The position numbers and the translations under genes are program-made. The notes beneath the pieces were generated by a model. The model saw nothing but the letters and a program-made list of their open reading frames with translations, made no database searches and was not told where the DNA came from. Below are positions 28,522 through 63,210 of a DNA stretch of 64,000 nt, in pieces. This DNA comes from Gigantopelta aegis (Eukaryota; Mollusca; Gastropoda; Neomphalida; Peltospiridae), in the NCBI RefSeq assembly GCF_016097555.1, contig NC_054701.1:32749975-32813974 (forward strand). Direction: 5' to 3'. Each line of letters opens with the position of its first letter. Position 1 is the first letter of the stretch.

Positions 28522-47459
<18,938 letters not shown>

Positions 47460-52055: not shown

Positions 52056-52790
52056 ACTCTTCAAAAAAAGAAACGCAAAAGGGTACAAATGGGTTATAAC
52101 TCCGATTTTATGTTTCCTACCGGTTCATGCTTTGTGAATATAAGGTCATTGCATGTCCCAAACACATTCCCACGGTTACATTCGATAAAACGCAGCTACT
52201 GTACAATAAAGTTCCAAAATGTGAATATTCGCAAAAACGCAGCCACGTGCAAACCATGTCACCACTGCACGTGCGTTGTCTGCACGTGCAACATGAACAC
52301 CGACAGTATAAAAGTGCAGGGTGTTCGCTTGCCTGGCCTCTGTATCTGGCCGACAGTTGACAATCCAGGACATGCCACGTCTCAGTGAACCGCAGAGAAA
52401 ATACAATGCCATCGGCCGACTAGACGCAGGCGAATCCAGAACGGCCGTTGCCAGGGCATTCCATGTGTCCCCAAGCACCATCTCCAGACTGTGGGACCGT
52501 TACCAGCAACATGGATCAACACGTGACCTCCCTAGATCCGGTCGACCACGGGTCACTACCCCCGGGCAGGACCGCTATATCCGGGTACGCCACCTTCGGG
52601 AACGATTGACTACTGCCACCTCCACAGCCGCAGCAATACCAGGTTTGCGCAGGATATCCGACCAGACCGTACGGAACCGCCTACGTGAGGTAGGAATTCG
52701 TGCCAGACGTCCAGTTCGAGGTGTCATCTTAACACCACAACACAGTAACTCACAGATGACAAAATGAGAAAAAAACGGGTAAGAATTAAC
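52056..52790 (+). mobile_element. Tc1/mariner-like element, left part, second copy
   Basis: Left terminus ACTCTTCAAAAAAAGAAACG after TATA. Leader and transposase N-terminus are nearly identical to 8908-9465. The right terminus and catalytic half are missing. Confidence 0.8.
52372..52767 (+). pseudogene. Tc1-like transposase, DNA-binding domain only
   Basis: From MPRLSEPQRKYNAIGRLDAG the frame runs through the helix-turn-helix (AVARAFHVSPSTISRLWDRY), the GRPR motif, a second helical segment (ISDQTVRNRLREVGIRARRP) and VRGVILTPQH. It then leaves the family sequence (SNSQMTK) and stops. The catalytic domain is absent, so at most it could act as a binding protein for the same terminal repeats. 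It is three residues longer near RKYNA than the 9.2-kb copy because of a small indel, and it continues past the point where that copy is interrupted. Confidence 0.8.
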
Positions 52791-53142: not shown

Positions 53143-54785
53143 ATGTTTCTAAATTGTTTCAGGTTTCTAAAAAGATTGAAAAAAAAGAGAAAAAGATCAT
53201 ACAAACCTGAGACCTTAATTGCAGCATGGAAAGCAGTTGAAAATGGCATGTTTATGTACAAGGCATCAAAAGTTTTTAGTGTACCAAAACAAACTCTTGG
53301 TGATAGAAAATCAGGAAAGGTACGTGACCCCCTGCGATTTGGTACAGGAGAACGACCAATGTTTGAAGAAGCTCACGAAAGAAACCCGGTAAATCGTTGG
53401 GATACGGTTATTCAAGGGCAGAAGTGATCAGCTTAGCTACCGATTATGCTCACTTCCTCTCTCTTTTGCCAGGTGATAAATCCCACTCCAATGGGTGGTT
53501 TTGTCGATTTTTGGCGAGATGGCCTGAATTGCAGTTGCTTCGACCGAGAAGCACAGAGATATATAGGGCAAAATGTGCTACACCTGAGGCATTCAAACAT
53601 TATTTCTCTGAACTTAAAAATGTGATGGAAAAATATGGCTTAATTAACAAACCTCACTGCATCTATAATGTAGACGAGACTGGGATTAACTGTCAACATA
53701 AACCAGGTATGGTAGTCTGTCTGAAAAAAAGCAAGCCAGCAGCTGTAGTAAGTTGAAGATCATCAACAGCATCTGTCATTGCATGTGGAAATGCTATCGG
53801 CACCTTTGTTCCACCATTTATAATATTTAAAGGCAAGAGGATATCTGCAGACCTATCACAGAACTGCACAGATGGTACTACAGTCCGCATGTCAGACACA
53901 GGCTGGTCCAATAACAATCTGTTTATGGACTTTTTACAAAATCACTTTCTGAAATATTGCATGGGTTCTGATTCGGACCACAAATTACTAATGTATGACG
54001 GCCATGCTAGCCATATTAATATTCCATTGATTGAGTGGGCTAGAGAACACAAGGTAATACTGTTTGTTTTGCCACCTCACACAAGCCATTTGACCCAACC
54101 ACTAGATGTTGGATGCTTCGGCCCATTTAAGCGATATCTGTACTCCGAATGTGCGAGTATCATGAGAAAGAAAATGACACAGGCCATTACAAAGTACGAC
54201 TTAGGTGAAATCATCTGCAAAGTGTACCCAAAGGCCCTCTCTCATCAGAACTTAGTATCAAGTTTTCGGAAGACTGGGATCTATCCTCTAAATGCAGAAG
54301 TTATTGACAAGAACCAGCTGACCATGTCATCTCTTTTCACAGGCAAGTCTCCAGACACCAGACCAAATGAAATGGACACATTTTTTGAAAACATCGATCC
54401 ATTGAAACATCTCACTGAAAAAACGACAACGAAAAAAAAGTATCAACCTGTAAAAACTGGAGGAACAGCCATTTTTGAAAGCCCTCTTTACCAAAAACTG
54501 AAATGCCTGCAAACGTGTGCAACACCAGCCGCAGATCCTGTTCCATGCACAAGTAGAAAAAAGAAAGTTTGTTCCAAGGAAACAGTCGTTGCTGACAGCG
54601 ACAGTGATGTGGAAATCAATGATGACGAAAAATGCTGTGTCTGTGAACTGTTTGAACCAGCTGGGCTGAAAAATCTTTATTGTGTCGAATTAGTCAATTG
54701 GGCACAATGTGAAAATTGTAACCACTGGGTGCATCTGAAATTTTGCGTGAAGCAAAGGGTTGTGAGACGTCACACAACGTTTTAG
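53143..54785 (+). pseudogene. Jerky/pogo-family DDE transposase with PHD-like tail
   Basis: A transposase of the pogo/Tigger/Jerky group, interrupted twice. Frame 1 (53143-53427) holds the Psq-type helix-turn-helix (YKPETLIAAWKAVENGMFMY, KASKVFSVPKQTLGDRKSGK). A shift near 53385 moves to the frame with GYGYSRAEVISLATDYAHFL and the CENPB-like part. A TGA at 53754-53756 follows PAAVVS, after which the same frame stays open to 54785. All three catalytic Asp are present: YNVDETG, LLMYDGHASH and HLTQPLDVGCFGPFKRYL. The C-terminus has a Cys/His cluster (CCVCELFEPAGLKNL, WAQCENCNHWVHLKFC) like a truncated PHD finger. With one frameshift and one stop it looks recently inactivated. No terminal repeats were found, so a domesticated gene with errors is a less likely alternative. 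Confidence 0.85.
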
Positions 54786-58315: not shown

Positions 58316-59473
58316 TCAACCAATCCATTCTCGTAAAGCGCTCCATAGATAACCCACGACCGGACCACCAATCTCTACTTCCTTTCGAAGGTTCTCTCTC
58401 ACTTTTCTCTGAACCTTTTCCACTCTTTCGATCCTGAGGCTTTTAATTTCTTGGTCCATCTGGTCTTCTAGATTGTGAAACTCTAAATTAAATCGTCCGA
58501 TATGCTTCTCTCGAATTCCGGACTTTTGTTCTTCGTTTTGAGACCGCACTCTCTCTGGTATTTCAGCAAATCGGTCTCCTCCCATCCCTGCTCGCCGCAG
58601 TTCCCATTGTGACTCCAGTGATTTCACCAAGATGAGCTTCAGCATTGGCTGCTTCTCTCTTTTGATTTTCATTGACTGATTTCAGTGATGCCCTATCCTC
58701 CTGTGTTATCGCCAATTCTCTGAACCTTTCTTCCAATTTTGCTTTTTTAGCTTCAAATCTTTCAGTTATTCGTTTAACTGACTTGTGAGTGTCCTCTTCC
58801 TGCTGTTTTAATATTTCCTGTTCTCTCTTTCTCATTTGATTTTCTGCTGCTCCCAACATTTCTGTTGTATAATAGTTTCCACTGTTCTTTGAAACATTGG
58901 ACTTAATCTTGTCTACGATGTCATCGATTTGCTTTTCCTTACGGTCCTGGTCATTTTCTCGGTTGTTTATTCCAAAATACTTTCCATTGCAGTCGTTGAG
59001 AAGAGCTTTAAGATCTGCTGGAGCCTTAGCAACATACTGCTCCAGGGTTCGCCCATCGTGTTCCAGATCATCCATCCCAGTGAACAAGACAAACAGGTAG
59101 CGCAGCATTCCGTCTCCAAACACCTGTCTGAAGTAACTAATGGTATCGTTCTCCTCTTTCGTGAACCGCTTGATTTTGAGAACGTGGATCAAAGCGTGTG
59201 GACCTGGAGCAGATATTCCAATACATTTCACGATTTCTTTTACGATTATTGCTTGTGAGCGACCGGTATCGAGCAAGCCAGGCGTATCAACGATGCTGAT
59301 GCGATAGCCAAATCGATCAGCACTGCCTTGCTGACATTGTGCTGTGACGGATTCCGCACTGGGCTCAGAATGGAAACATCTTGTCCCAAGAATAGAATTC
59401 CCCGACGAACTTTTCCCAGAACCAGTGATGCCGATCAATACAATCCGTAGTTCATCCTTCAGGAAAATATAAT
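58316..59473 (-). CDS. GIMAP/IAN-family GTPase exon (AIG1 domain, coiled coil), frame broken near 58590
   Basis: A GTP-binding AIG1 domain of the immunity-associated (GIMAP) family. Mammalian and molluscan relatives act in immune-cell survival and pathogen responses on intracellular membranes. The acceptor TTCTTTCTTCAG precedes 59473 and the exon enters in phase 1; no ATG precedes the P-loop, so it is an internal or last exon. Motifs: DELRIVLIGITGSGKSSSGN (G1), SVTAQC with the G2 Thr, IVDTPGLLDT (G3), the conserved box PHALIHVLKIKRFTKEE, LFTGMDDLEH (G4, atypical TGMD) and YFGINNRE (G5). A highly charged coiled coil follows (EILKQQEEDTHKSVKRITER and on). The frame stops at 58563 after RRPIC. 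An overlapping frame (GGDRFAEIPERVRSQNEEQK to LRKEVEIGGPVVGYLW, ending 58316) looks like the real C-terminus, so either a 1-nt frameshift or a very short intron lies near 58590. Confidence 0.85.
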
Positions 59474-59785
59474 CTGAAGAAAGAATGTAGATTCATATGT
59501 ATGAATAGAGAACAATGTAGATACATCTGTTTAGAAAATAATATAGATACATATGTATGTGTATAGCGTAGGCTGACAACCAAAATTGCTTATAATGTCC
59601 AAAAATAGATTTGATCAATTAAAAATTTCAGAACATTTAGAAAGAAAACAATTTTATTTATTTATTCAAATTATATGGCTTTGCTTCACTCTTAGCCTGT
59701 TACATGTATGTCCCTCAGCCCCGCAAAAGACCCCCCCCCCCCACCAACCCCCTCCAAAAAAGAAACTCCAAAAAAAAAAAACAAA

Positions 59786-59818
<33 letters not shown>

Positions 59819-60529
59819 CTCCATATTAATTTATAAAAATATAAAGACAGAGCTGTGCATGTCAGTCCCCCATAGTCAATTATAAAATAAGGACCCTTCC
59901 AGACATTAATTGCAGTACTGTATTACGAAAACATTATGGTGATAGAATATACTCTGAGAAATAATAAATGCATTCATGAGTACATTTAAAACTACATTCC
60001 CTGGAATATTTTTATTATTTAAGCATATAGAACAGAAAATCCAATTACGTTTGGTGTATATATGACGCCGCACTCCGCATTGGTTTCACTACGCTGGCTT
60101 ATCCAGGTAAAAAACAAAGCCATGATTTTGAAAGTGGAACACTTTTGACGGGCTCGTACCGATCTCGGTTTTCATTGGCTTATCACAAGTATAGAATTCC
60201 CCAACAACAGATCACGTGAGATTTCGCAATTTTTGAACAAATTTAACTGTCTTGATCGAGGGGTCGTCTCATATCTCCAAAACATATTTATATCCATAGA
60301 GGTATGGTACAACGCCTTTCCAGGGGTCGGTGAGTGGGGGATTTGCCTTGAAATATTGACAGTGGCCAGCTGTTTGCATACGCGTTACGTGTAAGGGGGT
60401 GTTACTAATTACGTAACGCTCTAGGGGTAGAGGAAGAGGGTACTGTGTTCGAGTTACGTAACATTTTTCAAGACTATAATAAATGTTATTATTATTCATT
60501 ATGTAGACCTAAAAAGGTGTTTTTTGGAA
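59474..60529. other. Intronic or intergenic sequence
   Basis: CAA microsatellite and A/C-rich tract at 59730-59820. Two CATTGG motifs (near 60080 and 60172) are compatible with CCAAT boxes but prove nothing. No coding exon recognised. Confidence 0.45.
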
Positions 60530-60880
60530 ATGCGCGATCAGTCTAGGATCGATCCCTATCGGCGGGTATACAAAAAGACCATGGTATGTGATATCCTGTC
60601 TGTGGGATGGTGCATATAAACAATCCCTTGCTAAAAACAATGTAGCGGGTTTCCAAGGCCCATGCGCAGGGATTTCAGCGGGGTTGGGGTTATAGACTGT
60701 GTTAAGCGAAGTTTATATGGGGCCATGCTCCCTCACAAAAATACATTTTAAAAAAAATTTGAGCTTGGGCAAGTAAGGGTTTCGACCTCCAATACCCTCC
60801 CCCTGTACATGCACCTGATTCCTCTCTAAGATTATATGTCAAAATTACCACATGTTAGACATCCAACAGCAGATGGAAGG
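60530..60880 (+). mobile_element. Type B SINE interrupted by a 164-bp insertion
   Basis: The SINE reads GCGATCAGTCTAGGATCGAT to GTAGCGGGTTTCC (60654), then resumes at 60819 with TTCCTCTCTAAGATTATATG and ends near CATCCAACAGCAGATGG. The insertion 60655-60818 is flanked by TTCC on both sides and has inverted ends AAGGCCCATGCGCAGGG and, inverted, AATCAGGTGCATGTACAGGG. Confidence 0.75.
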
Positions 60881-60885
60881 AAGGA

Positions 60886-60955
60886 TAGGATATGTTTTAT
60901 TTAACGACGCACTCAACATATTTTATTTACGGTTGTATGGGGTCGGATGATTATT
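60886..60955 (-). mobile_element. Type B SINE tail b fragment
   Basis: GATATGTTTTATTTAACGAC, GCACTCAACATATTTTATTT and GGTTGTATGGGGTCGG. Confidence 0.7.
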
Positions 60956-61765
60956 AAATCAATATGCTTTATCTTTGATGTCGTTAAGCCCCCCACCCCC
61001 ACCCCGCCAACTTTACCCTTTCCAAACGAAGTGATATTTATTTGAATTTGTCGATTTTAACACGTAAAATTAAGAAGTGAAAACATTCATTGTCTACTTT
61101 AGTATATTTTATTTTAAAAAGATATACATGATTAATGTGTTACTAGTATACAAACTAAACTTTGAAAGTTCTACTAACACTTTATAAAAGATCAATTCTG
61201 AAATAGGAAGGTACGACTGTCGATAATACGTTGTCAAGATCAAACCGGTTTTAACTACAGCGCAAGATTTCTCTTTTAATTTTTTTAGACGAACCCTACA
61301 ATTTGAAATCGGCAATCGCACGTGTTAACTGAAACTGACAACAGGCTGTCGTTTGTGCTTTTCCGAGCTATGGCGGCACAGGCTCCGAATCAAGCGTATA
61401 CGACTGACGATATCCGTTCATAGCGAACACACACGACTTTTTTAAAAGTGCATTTGAGCTTGTATTTCACATTTGTACATGATGTTATAATATGATAACC
61501 AGATAATGTAACTTTAAACGTTCAAAAAGGGAGATAAAGCCAAACATATTTAATTTCAAAACCAGAATGGACATAGCTTTATATATTTTACTTTTAAGCA
61601 TAGAATAAACATTGCTTCATATTATTTGTGGTTCAAAACTTGGAATGGATACACATGTAGATCCATGTCATTATTTGAAACTGTAAACCAAAACGGACTT
61701 AGCGTCATACGAGTATATATGACACCGTTGTCATATCGGTAGTGGAAGCAACAAAAGAAAGGAAC
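60956..61765. other. Unassigned sequence
   Basis: A 17-codon plus-strand frame starts ATGGCGGCACAGGCTCC near 61371. It stops at once and is not supported. Nothing else recognised. Confidence 0.4.
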
Positions 61766-61870
61766 CTTGGCTCTGGTATGGAGTAATTTGTGTTCCGCGA
61801 GGTGTATAACACATGAAGCAATCGCGATCGCCGTCACAGTTGTCATAAGTACATGTCGCACACGTCCAAA
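61766..61870 (-). CDS. RanBP2/NZF-type zinc-finger exon, copy 1
   Basis: A 105-nt exon with acceptor ATATTCTCTTTCAG and a weak donor CCAAG/GTTCCT, phase 1 at both ends. It encodes WTCATCTYDNCDGDRDCFMC and then YTPRGTQITPYQSQ. This fits W-x-C-x2-C-x3-N-x6-C-x2-C exactly, the four-cysteine zinc ribbon of RanBP2/NZF fingers. The Thr-Tyr after the second Cys and the Met before the last Cys correspond to the TF/hydrophobic surface that binds ubiquitin in Npl4-type NZFs. It lies 2.3 kb upstream of the GIMAP exon in the same orientation, and its exit phase would fit that exon's acceptor. It could instead belong to a separate gene. Confidence 0.75.
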
Positions 61871-61999
61871 CTGAAAGAGAATATAATGAAACACATTTTA
61901 ACATTTTAAATTATTAAAGCATAAAAAACGAGTAACACGATGTACTACGTACATACATGCACATACACATACGTACAAACATACACAAATACAAATACG

Positions 62000-62180
62000 T
62001 ACACATACCTACCTACCTACCTACTTACCTACCTACCTACCTACATACATACCTACCTACCCAGCCACGTACACACATACATACCGTGTCACTGTCAGTG
62101 CGTTATATATATAACGCACTGACTGTGACACGGTATGTATGTATGTACGTAGCTAGGTAGGTAGGTAGGTAGGTATGTGT
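62000..62180. repeat. Long near-perfect palindrome flanked by CTAC repeats
   Basis: ACCGTGTCACTGTCAGTGCG and its complement (one mismatch) surround a TATATATA centre at 62108. The arms extend through ATAC and CTAC/GTAG repeats. Confidence 0.85.
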
Positions 62181-62339
62181 AAGTGTTTGTATTATAAGTA
62201 CTAATCAAACCCGACATGCATACATTATGTTTATGAATATAAAAATCCATATAATATACCTATACAATCATATTTGCCACGCGAAGAGGTGAACGCGTGG
62301 TTTTTAGGCACCACGTATACTTTTGGTTTAAGAATGGTT

Positions 62340-62460
62340 GTCAAGTTGGTAAGACGACTGTGGGAGAATTGGTGTTATAGGTTCGAGCCCCAGTAACGGT
62401 ATGAGAAACAGTTTATGAGGCTAAAAAAGGTTTTATCCAAAGACACCGTGAAACATACAT
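62340..62460 (+). mobile_element. Type D SINE with tRNA-like head
   Basis: GTCAAGTTGGTAAGACGACT (A-box side), ATAGGTTCGAGCCCCAGTAA (B box), then TTTATGAGGCTAAAAAAGG as in the 35326 copy, ending in ATAC repeats. Confidence 0.6.
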
Positions 62461-62618
62461 ACATACGTGCGTGCATGCACTGAAATTAATTTTTGAAAGT
62501 AATATGTTTAACTTTATTGAATTTGCATATGACCTTTACCGATTAGCAACAAACTGTCTTTCATAGGCACTTTCACACAGAACTCCCCCACATAATATTA
62601 TACTTCTGCCTTTCGAAC

Positions 62619-62818
62619 CAGTGCACCACTACTAGTATATCAAAGGCCGTGGTATGTGCTATCATGTCTGTGGGATGGTACATATAAAAGATACCTTACT
62701 ACTAATGGGAAAATGTAGCGGGTTTTAAATGTCGGAGTTACCAAGAGTTTTCCATTCAATAGCCGATGCGTAATAAATGAATGTGCTCTAGTGATGTAAA
62801 CAAAACAAAACTTTAACT
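62619..62818 (+). mobile_element. Type B SINE, tail a
   Basis: CCAGTGCACCACTACTAGTA, AAGGCCGTGGTATGTGCTAT, CAATAGCCGATGCGTAATAA. Head missing. Confidence 0.8.
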
Positions 62819-62993
62819 TTGATGTACTAGTCACGAACATGTTGTTGAAACAGGAAATTCTATACAAGTTCTAAAAAGGAAAATAAATTGTGCGACTTGT
62901 CTCCGTGAAATCCCTCAAATTGACCCCAACCAAACAACAAAATATTTAACAATAAATAAATGAATAAATAAATAAATATAATAATGGACGTGC

Positions 62994-63098
62994 CTTCGCT
63001 CCTATATAACATAACTTGCGTTCCGCGTAGTGTATCGCACACCAAGCACTCTCTATCACCGTCACAGTTTTCATAAGTACATTCTGAACACGTCCAAA
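62994..63098 (-). CDS. RanBP2/NZF-type zinc-finger exon, copy 2
   Basis: Also exactly 105 nt, with acceptor TACTTTCTCTTTTAG, phase 1. It encodes WTCSECTYENCDGDRECLVC and then DTLRGTQVMLYRSE. All zinc ligands, the Trp, the Asn and the CTY are conserved relative to copy 1. Changes are mostly conservative (Asp/Glu), which suggests selection on the protein. The aligned donor position is GAAG/GCACGT, so it would need a GC donor or is losing splicing. Flanking intron sequence (TTTTAACATTTTAA) is also shared, so this is a tandem genomic duplication with copy 1, 1.2 kb apart. Confidence 0.7.
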
Positions 63099-63210
63099 CT
63101 AAAAGAGAAAGTAATTAGATAATTTTTAACATTTTAAGTTTTTAACTCGGTATTCTAGAGTTATAAAACTAAATAAACGCTCTACTAAATGGAAATACAT
63201 CGACTTGAAC

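Follow-up and report, generated by a model that had tools for sequence, protein, structure and literature searches.

Npl4-type zinc-finger exons paired with an AIG1/GIMAP GTPase exon in a gene family of the gastropod Gigantopelta aegis

Introduction

Do two zinc-finger exons and a GTPase exon that follow one another on the same strand belong to a single gene? The question is raised by a stretch of 64,000 nucleotides (nt) of the Gigantopelta aegis genome (C3:32749975-32813974), called the window here. Its GC content is 37.1%; the genome paper gives 37.22% for the published assembly (PMC7895826). An earlier note, made from the letters of this stretch, had joined two exons for Npl4-type zinc fingers (NZF, of the RanBP2 kind) to an exon for an AIG1 GTPase domain of the GIMAP family, and had proposed an NZF-NZF-AIG1-coiled-coil protein. 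The window exons are probably parts of one gene in a Gigantopelta family of at least four copies, in which an N-terminal Npl4-type finger is followed by an AIG1/GIMAP GTPase and a coiled coil; a ubiquitin-guided scaffold is proposed as the product. The combination is regarded as a real architecture in G. aegis because the pairing recurs at the closest paralogues, these loci form one clade, the finger codons look constrained and the exon phases agree. At the level of sequence, the pairing of the exons, their common phase, the clade and the codon constraint are documented below; a likely role of the finger is to guide the GTPase towards targets that carry ubiquitin. The family can be rated firmly and the window copy only cautiously, because the latter differs in its donors, linker, middle exon and reading frame. 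The belonging together of the exons survived scrutiny, through the junction in a predicted protein and through three paralogues. An intact coiled coil and tail in this copy did not, owing to a frameshift.

Exon structure of the window gene

The exons and motifs concerned are the following. P0001 is a predicted protein of this locus.

62994..63098, minus strand: NZF1 exon, 105 nt, phase 1-1, WTCSECTYENCDGDRECLVCDTLRGTQVMLYRSE; donor GC, AAG/GCACGT
61766..61870, minus strand: NZF2 exon, 105 nt, phase 1-1, WTCATCTYDNCDGDRDCFMCYTPRGTQITPYQSQ; weak GT donor, CAAG/GTTCCT
58563..59473, minus strand: AIG1 (GIMAP GTPase) and coiled-coil exon, phase-1 acceptor, stop at 58563
59409..59432, minus strand: G1/P-loop of the AIG1 exon, GITGSGKS
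59277..59288, minus strand: G3 motif of the AIG1 exon, DTPG
59151..59171, minus strand: KRFTKEE of the AIG1 exon; its Arg is residue 119 of P0001
59067..59087, minus strand: LFTGMDD of the AIG1 exon, a variant in the region of the G4 motif
58319..58681, minus strand: second frame with the conserved tail (...GGPVVGYLWSALREWIG), out of frame, deletion near 58619
62993..63145, minus strand: duplicated NZF exon unit, copy 1
61765..61917, minus strand: duplicated NZF exon unit, copy 2
59474..61765, minus strand: NZF2-AIG1 interval (intron)

The two 105-nt exons with perfect finger motifs are as the earlier note described them. The strict motif W-x-C-x2-C-x3-N-x6-C-x2-C is exact in both fingers (minus strand, at 63096 and 61868), and a six-frame scan of the window finds no third; about 2e-5 such motifs per window are expected from base composition. 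Against Pfam PF00641 the fingers score 27.8 and 27.5 bits and pass the cut-off of 27 narrowly; the AIG1 exon scores 206.6 bits, also against a cut-off of 27. The finger units form a direct duplication of 153 nt, with copies 77% identical and 1228 nt apart.

Fingers and AIG1 exon share strand and phase 1. Both finger exons begin at a good acceptor and end at AAG/G in phase 1, and the proposed likeness in acceptor quality also holds, as the acceptors of all three exons are among the best 1.1-2.2% of 3058 AGs; the likeness does not extend to the donors. The predicted join from the 61766 donor to the 59473 acceptor keeps the frame (G + AT) and connects NZF2 to the AIG1 frame. Between the upstream stop and the P-loop of the AIG1 exon there is no in-frame ATG, so that this exon requires an upstream coding exon. 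One correction concerns the 3' part: the AIG1 frame stops at 58563, and 58316-58681 is another frame, in which the C-terminal tail of the family lies.

The junction recurs in P0001, a predicted 319-aa 'GTPase IMAP family member 7-like [Gigantopelta aegis]', which covers 86% of the joined window translation and agrees with it there at 100% identity. Residues 1-16 correspond to the last part of finger 2, starting with the Met of CFMC; the AIG1 exon follows directly, across the exact 61766 to 59473 junction. In the 29 kb past the window edge no further finger was seen; 5000 bases there are N (L009:975-5974, adjoining the right window edge), a possible place of the gene start.

The intervals of the gene contain repeats. 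A repeat-like stretch of about 1.5 kb (~59979-61461) lies in the NZF2-AIG1 interval; it is found again in inverted orientation, past the finger, in L013, a stretch with the finger of a paralogue (75-95% in translated pieces). A palindrome at 62039-62178, between NZF1 and NZF2, has two 70-nt arms (90%) without a spacer. A short interspersed repeat has one copy in each interval (60574-60633 and 62642-62701, 85%).

Paralogues in the same genome

The 1.15-Gb G. aegis assembly contains 46 AIG1 matches. Three loci on C2 (~39.945, 39.986 and 40.049 Mb; L001, the one at 39.986 Mb, with L002 and L005) encode AIG1 domains 68-71% identical to that of the window over 293 aligned columns; the next three loci reach 59-63% over 219-250 columns. 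At each of these three closest paralogues, on another chromosome, a finger exon lies upstream on the same strand. The distance from finger to AIG1 exon is 3405, 3700 and 3458 nt in the paralogues, and 2395 and 3623 nt in the window.

When the 34 residues of finger 2 were searched against the whole genome, 13 sites matched at E<=10. Five stand apart, with E from 7e-19 to 4e-4: the two window fingers and those of L002, L001 and L005. The remaining eight have E>=0.43. Besides the window, a finger was found upstream at three of 25 AIG1 loci inspected, all three in the AIG1 group of the window. The upstream stretches inspected were 10 kb long at 8+8 loci, 1.1 kb at one and 5 kb at eight (motif scan only), with 1193 N in L013, 973 in L017, 838 in L018 and 200 in L016; the remaining AIG1 matches of the 46 were covered by the whole-genome finger search alone. 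Looser motif matches in L012, L015, L022, L024, L029, L030 and L037 were rejected as low-complexity or broken by stops. A genome search with the PF00641 profile (E<=0.001) gave 12 matches, none at the finger-AIG1 loci, because their fingers are too weak for this threshold.

In a maximum-likelihood tree of 23 AIG1 domains (the window, seven genomic loci and 15 proteins chosen from 224), the window, L001, L002 and L005 form a clade with support 99/95, and the finger label needs one change. For the tree's four protein rows labelled 'no finger seen', the label rests on predicted proteins and the genome finger search.

The paralogues share a fuller exon plan. Their finger exon runs into QSQLQGT-type repeats and then a conserved NELxSLTxRWxAFxMxS. 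The best GT donor of each is in phase 1 (CTGAAG/GTATGT twice, CTAAAG/GTATGC) and gives exon lengths of 321, 339 and 510 nt, all multiples of three; GC sites within the repeats come close to it in score. A middle exon of 96, 96 or 81 nt, phase 1-1, lies between the finger and AIG1 exons; the 15-nt difference in length is in frame. Exons could be gained or lost in the paralogues without a break of frame, because all borders are in phase 1. Their AIG1 exon has an open frame of 408-411 codons with GGGVxGYLWNxxKYWLG at the C-terminal end, a tail intact in L001, L002 and L005. No start exon of the paralogues was identified; two short conserved stretches lie upstream of their finger, and the translated match on the longer one has stops.

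The predicted protein P0004 ('protein MNN4-like') corresponds to the AIG1 gene of L001 (C2:39984837-39988457). Its start was placed within the G domain, and it is without finger, linker and P-loop. The surrounding region C2:39.905-40.070 Mb (L001-L005 and L007) holds six strong AIG1 matches in mixed orientation, with a finger upstream in three of the six.

Finger sequence and ubiquitin signature

The positions named in the earlier note for ubiquitin contact, Thr-Tyr and Val/Met, are present in both window fingers. In all five fingers of the family the Trp, the four Cys, the Asn and Thr-(Tyr/Phe) are conserved, and the last Cys is preceded by Val, Met or Ile. The signature residues are TY/V in NZF1, TY/M in NZF2, and TY/I, TY/M and TF/I in L012, L013 and L014, the stretches with the fingers of the three paralogues; the L014 finger keeps the strict motif as the window pair does. 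A TF motif and a hydrophobic residue about ten further on contribute to ubiquitin binding, as reported for such fingers (PMC12805371).

The finger codons look constrained. Between window and paralogues the proportions of differences at synonymous (pS) and non-synonymous (pN) sites are 0.46-0.94 and 0.23-0.32, after removal of the additional codon in L012 and L013. Between window fingers 1 and 2, pS is 0.37 and pN 0.17; over the whole 105-nt exon, the synonymous rate (dS) is 0.64 and the non-synonymous rate (dN) 0.23.

The AIG1 domain

The structure model of the window AIG1 part has a predicted local distance difference test (pLDDT) score of 85.8. Its top PDB matches are GIMAP7, GIMAP2 and GIMAP5. 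GIMAP7 is the best (E 9e-22, TMt 0.66-0.79), and TMt for GIMAP2 is 0.81-0.85. A long helix is predicted at 220-309 of the model; in the window copy the conserved tail falls outside the frame. Arg119 of P0001 is invariant across the 42 rows of AIG1 alignment A3 and aligns with an Arg of GIMAP7 (3zjc) that we take to be Arg103, the arginine finger of GIMAP7. In GIMAP7 the arginine finger is described as being supplied through dimerisation (PMC8066113).

Weighing the one-gene reading

Several observations weigh against the family reading, and those from the window copy are taken first. Splice donors were scored with a scoring matrix for splice sites. For NZF2, 31% of 4334 minus-strand GTs score equal to its donor or higher; the NZF1 donor is a GC with a score of 5.3, and GC sites within the paralogue repeats score 4.8. 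Both window donors lie where the paralogues encode a Gln-Gly-Thr repeat (CAAGGCACG). They may be remnants of that repeat, and the tidy 105-nt exon length may partly reflect it, because of where they sit. The search within the window for a start exon 5' of finger 1 gave no convincing candidate. P0001 lacks finger 1, and its start inside finger 2 leaves no working finger; it therefore backs the splice and not a working finger in the window copy.

The copy departs from its paralogues in other ways. It has two fingers, and neither the repeat linker nor the middle exon is detectable in it. Deletions of 24, 3 and 30 nt in this copy keep the frame. A deletion near 58619, of 8 nt relative to L001 and L002 and 17 nt relative to L005, shifts it, and because of this the conserved tail lies in another frame and translation ends at 58563. 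A single-base slip was ruled out as the cause; alignment with the intact paralogues places a larger deletion there. On these comparisons the window copy is the least typical of the four family members, and the gene may be a truncated form or decaying.

The chance that the family is real and the window copy a pseudogene or truncated paralogue, with no intact NZF-AIG1 protein from the locus, is put a little short of even. The frame-shifting deletion and loss of the tail, the undetectable linker and middle exon, the weak GT and GC donors and the mid-finger start of P0001 all fit such a copy, but no stop interrupts the G domain, in which G1, G3 and the invariant Arg are present, both fingers keep all ligands and the TF motif, and pS exceeds pN between copies.

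The remaining counter-evidence concerns the finger. One additional residue precedes the Asn in the fingers of L012 and L013 and shifts their hydrophobic position by one. The three paralogue fingers score 19.6-19.8 bits against PF00641, under the cut-off of 27. The finger structure model, from a two-row alignment, has a pLDDT of 55, too poor for use. The codon comparison is based on no more than 24 codons, and in several pairs the synonymous sites are saturated. It is unlikely, though conceivable, that the fusion is real and its finger contacts a protein or RNA other than ubiquitin, as some RanBP2-type fingers do. Affinity cannot be given by sequence, and NZF2 of HOIP is reported to be required for recruiting the Ubl of SHARPIN (PMC3940038); on the other side, five of five fingers keep Thr-(Tyr/Phe) and have Met/Val/Ile ahead of the last Cys.

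It is highly improbable that the finger exons are those of a neighbouring gene, lying upstream of AIG1 by chance: the finger-AIG1 intervals are 2.4-3.7 kb long and hold repeats, as separate genes would allow, but the pairing occurs at four loci on two chromosomes within one AIG1 clade, no other genome site matches the finger at a comparable score, the AIG1 exon offers no start codon ahead of its P-loop, and P0001 carries the finger-AIG1 junction.

Proposed mechanism

Under the family reading, the following course of action is proposed. (i) A surface formed by Thr-(Tyr/Phe) and Met/Ile/Val would let the finger bind ubiquitin. (ii) The ubiquitin-bound finger would bring the GTPase to ubiquitin-marked cargo or membranes. 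(iii) GTP-dependent pairing of G domains, GIMAP7-like with an arginine supplied in trans, would build a scaffold together with the coiled coil. (iv) The C-terminal GGGVxGYLW tail could provide a membrane or partner contact.

What the finger would read is a matter for speculation. G. aegis is reported to house two bacteria in bacteriocytes of the oesophageal gland (PMC7895826). Because the host keeps bacteria in bacteriocytes, ubiquitin-marked bacterial compartments are a thinkable target. A lineage-specific family of ubiquitin-guided GIMAPs, in which the finger recognises ubiquitin on membranes that enclose bacteria or symbionts and the GTPase and coiled coil assemble there, is a doubtful proposition for now. 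If true, it would be a direct one-protein link of ubiquitin marking to GIMAP action. The mode of action of GIMAP GTPases has been described as poorly understood (PMC3804274), and a natural fusion with a ubiquitin-reading-type finger would be a hint about their pathway.

Mobile elements elsewhere in the window

Frames resembling mobile elements lie at some distance from the finger-AIG1 gene.

31992-34289, minus strand: frame like a long interspersed nuclear element (LINE), with endonuclease PF03372 and reverse transcriptase PF00078
30852-31988: open frame beside the LINE-like frame, no Pfam family matched
36819-37625, minus strand: Tc1-like transposase piece, PF13358 over the cut-off, PF01498 below
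52312-52764, plus strand: helix-turn-helix piece, PF01498 match below the cut-off
53760-54785, plus strand: DDE_1 transposase frame, PF03184, presumably of the pogo/Tigger kind
53367-53756: open stretch preceding the DDE_1 frame, in the same frame, no Pfam family matched

Comparison with known systems

For other animals, predicted proteins were searched, not genomes. The earlier expectation of fusions in relatives was borne out by paralogues in the same genome and not by the 224 retrieved AIG1 homologues, predicted proteins in none of which the finger motif was found. The joined window protein gave 109 matches, none of them listed with PF00641; the finger region gave one match from two candidates, P0001. 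In a search with alignment A1, PF00641 was found in none of the best 120 of 1779 matches. Candidates in the single-sequence searches were 0.55-1.75 times the query length, a range in which longer fusions could be missed. A hidden finger in the odd N-terminus of P0005 was rejected, part of that region matching window repeats at 43576-43511 and 41318-41395. Among the papers searched, none was found that describes a fusion of AIG1 with a RanBP2-type finger.

Two family members could be tied to predicted proteins, the window copy to P0001 and L001 to P0004, and neither has a full finger there, which is a gap in the gene models. Surveys of predicted proteins would miss NZF-AIG1, because P0001 begins inside the finger and P0004 inside the G domain.

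AIG1 joined to other domains is already known; its combination with a RanBP2-type finger appears to be new among the proteins and literature searched. In Biomphalaria, AIG proteins are reported in 19 arrangements with CARD, kinase, ARM and Hint partners (PMC7053062), and lancelet AIG proteins are reported joined to CARD and Hint (PMC12373286). A SAM-AIG1 protein of oyster (P0019) was among those retrieved. Like the Gigantopelta family, the Biomphalaria and lancelet proteins have an AIG1 exon joined to other domains; the words 'zinc' and 'RanBP' are absent from the main text of the Biomphalaria survey (PMC7053062), as is 'zinc' from that of the lancelet survey (PMC12373286).

Human GIMAP7, GIMAP4, GIMAP5 and GIMAP2, the best PDB matches by sequence and fold, have the AIG1 domain, P-loop, DTPG and conserved Arg in common with the window protein; the finger was matched in none of those chains. 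The G4 region differs, with GMDD in the window and GxDD in several Gigantopelta paralogues, RKEE in GIMAP7 and RKDD in GIMAP4. GIMAP6 has been tied to the autophagy machinery through the Atg8 homologue GABARAPL2, a link that is reported to need the last 10 residues of GIMAP6 and involves no finger (PMC3804274).

The closest likeness on the finger side is with CAPN15/SOL, TRABID and HOIP, which carry two or three Npl4-type fingers on an enzyme, as the window gene may. The NZFs of CAPN15 are reported to be needed to recognise ubiquitinated targets (PMC12805371). In those proteins the enzyme is a protease, deubiquitinase or ligase, whereas in the window gene it is an AIG1 GTPase.

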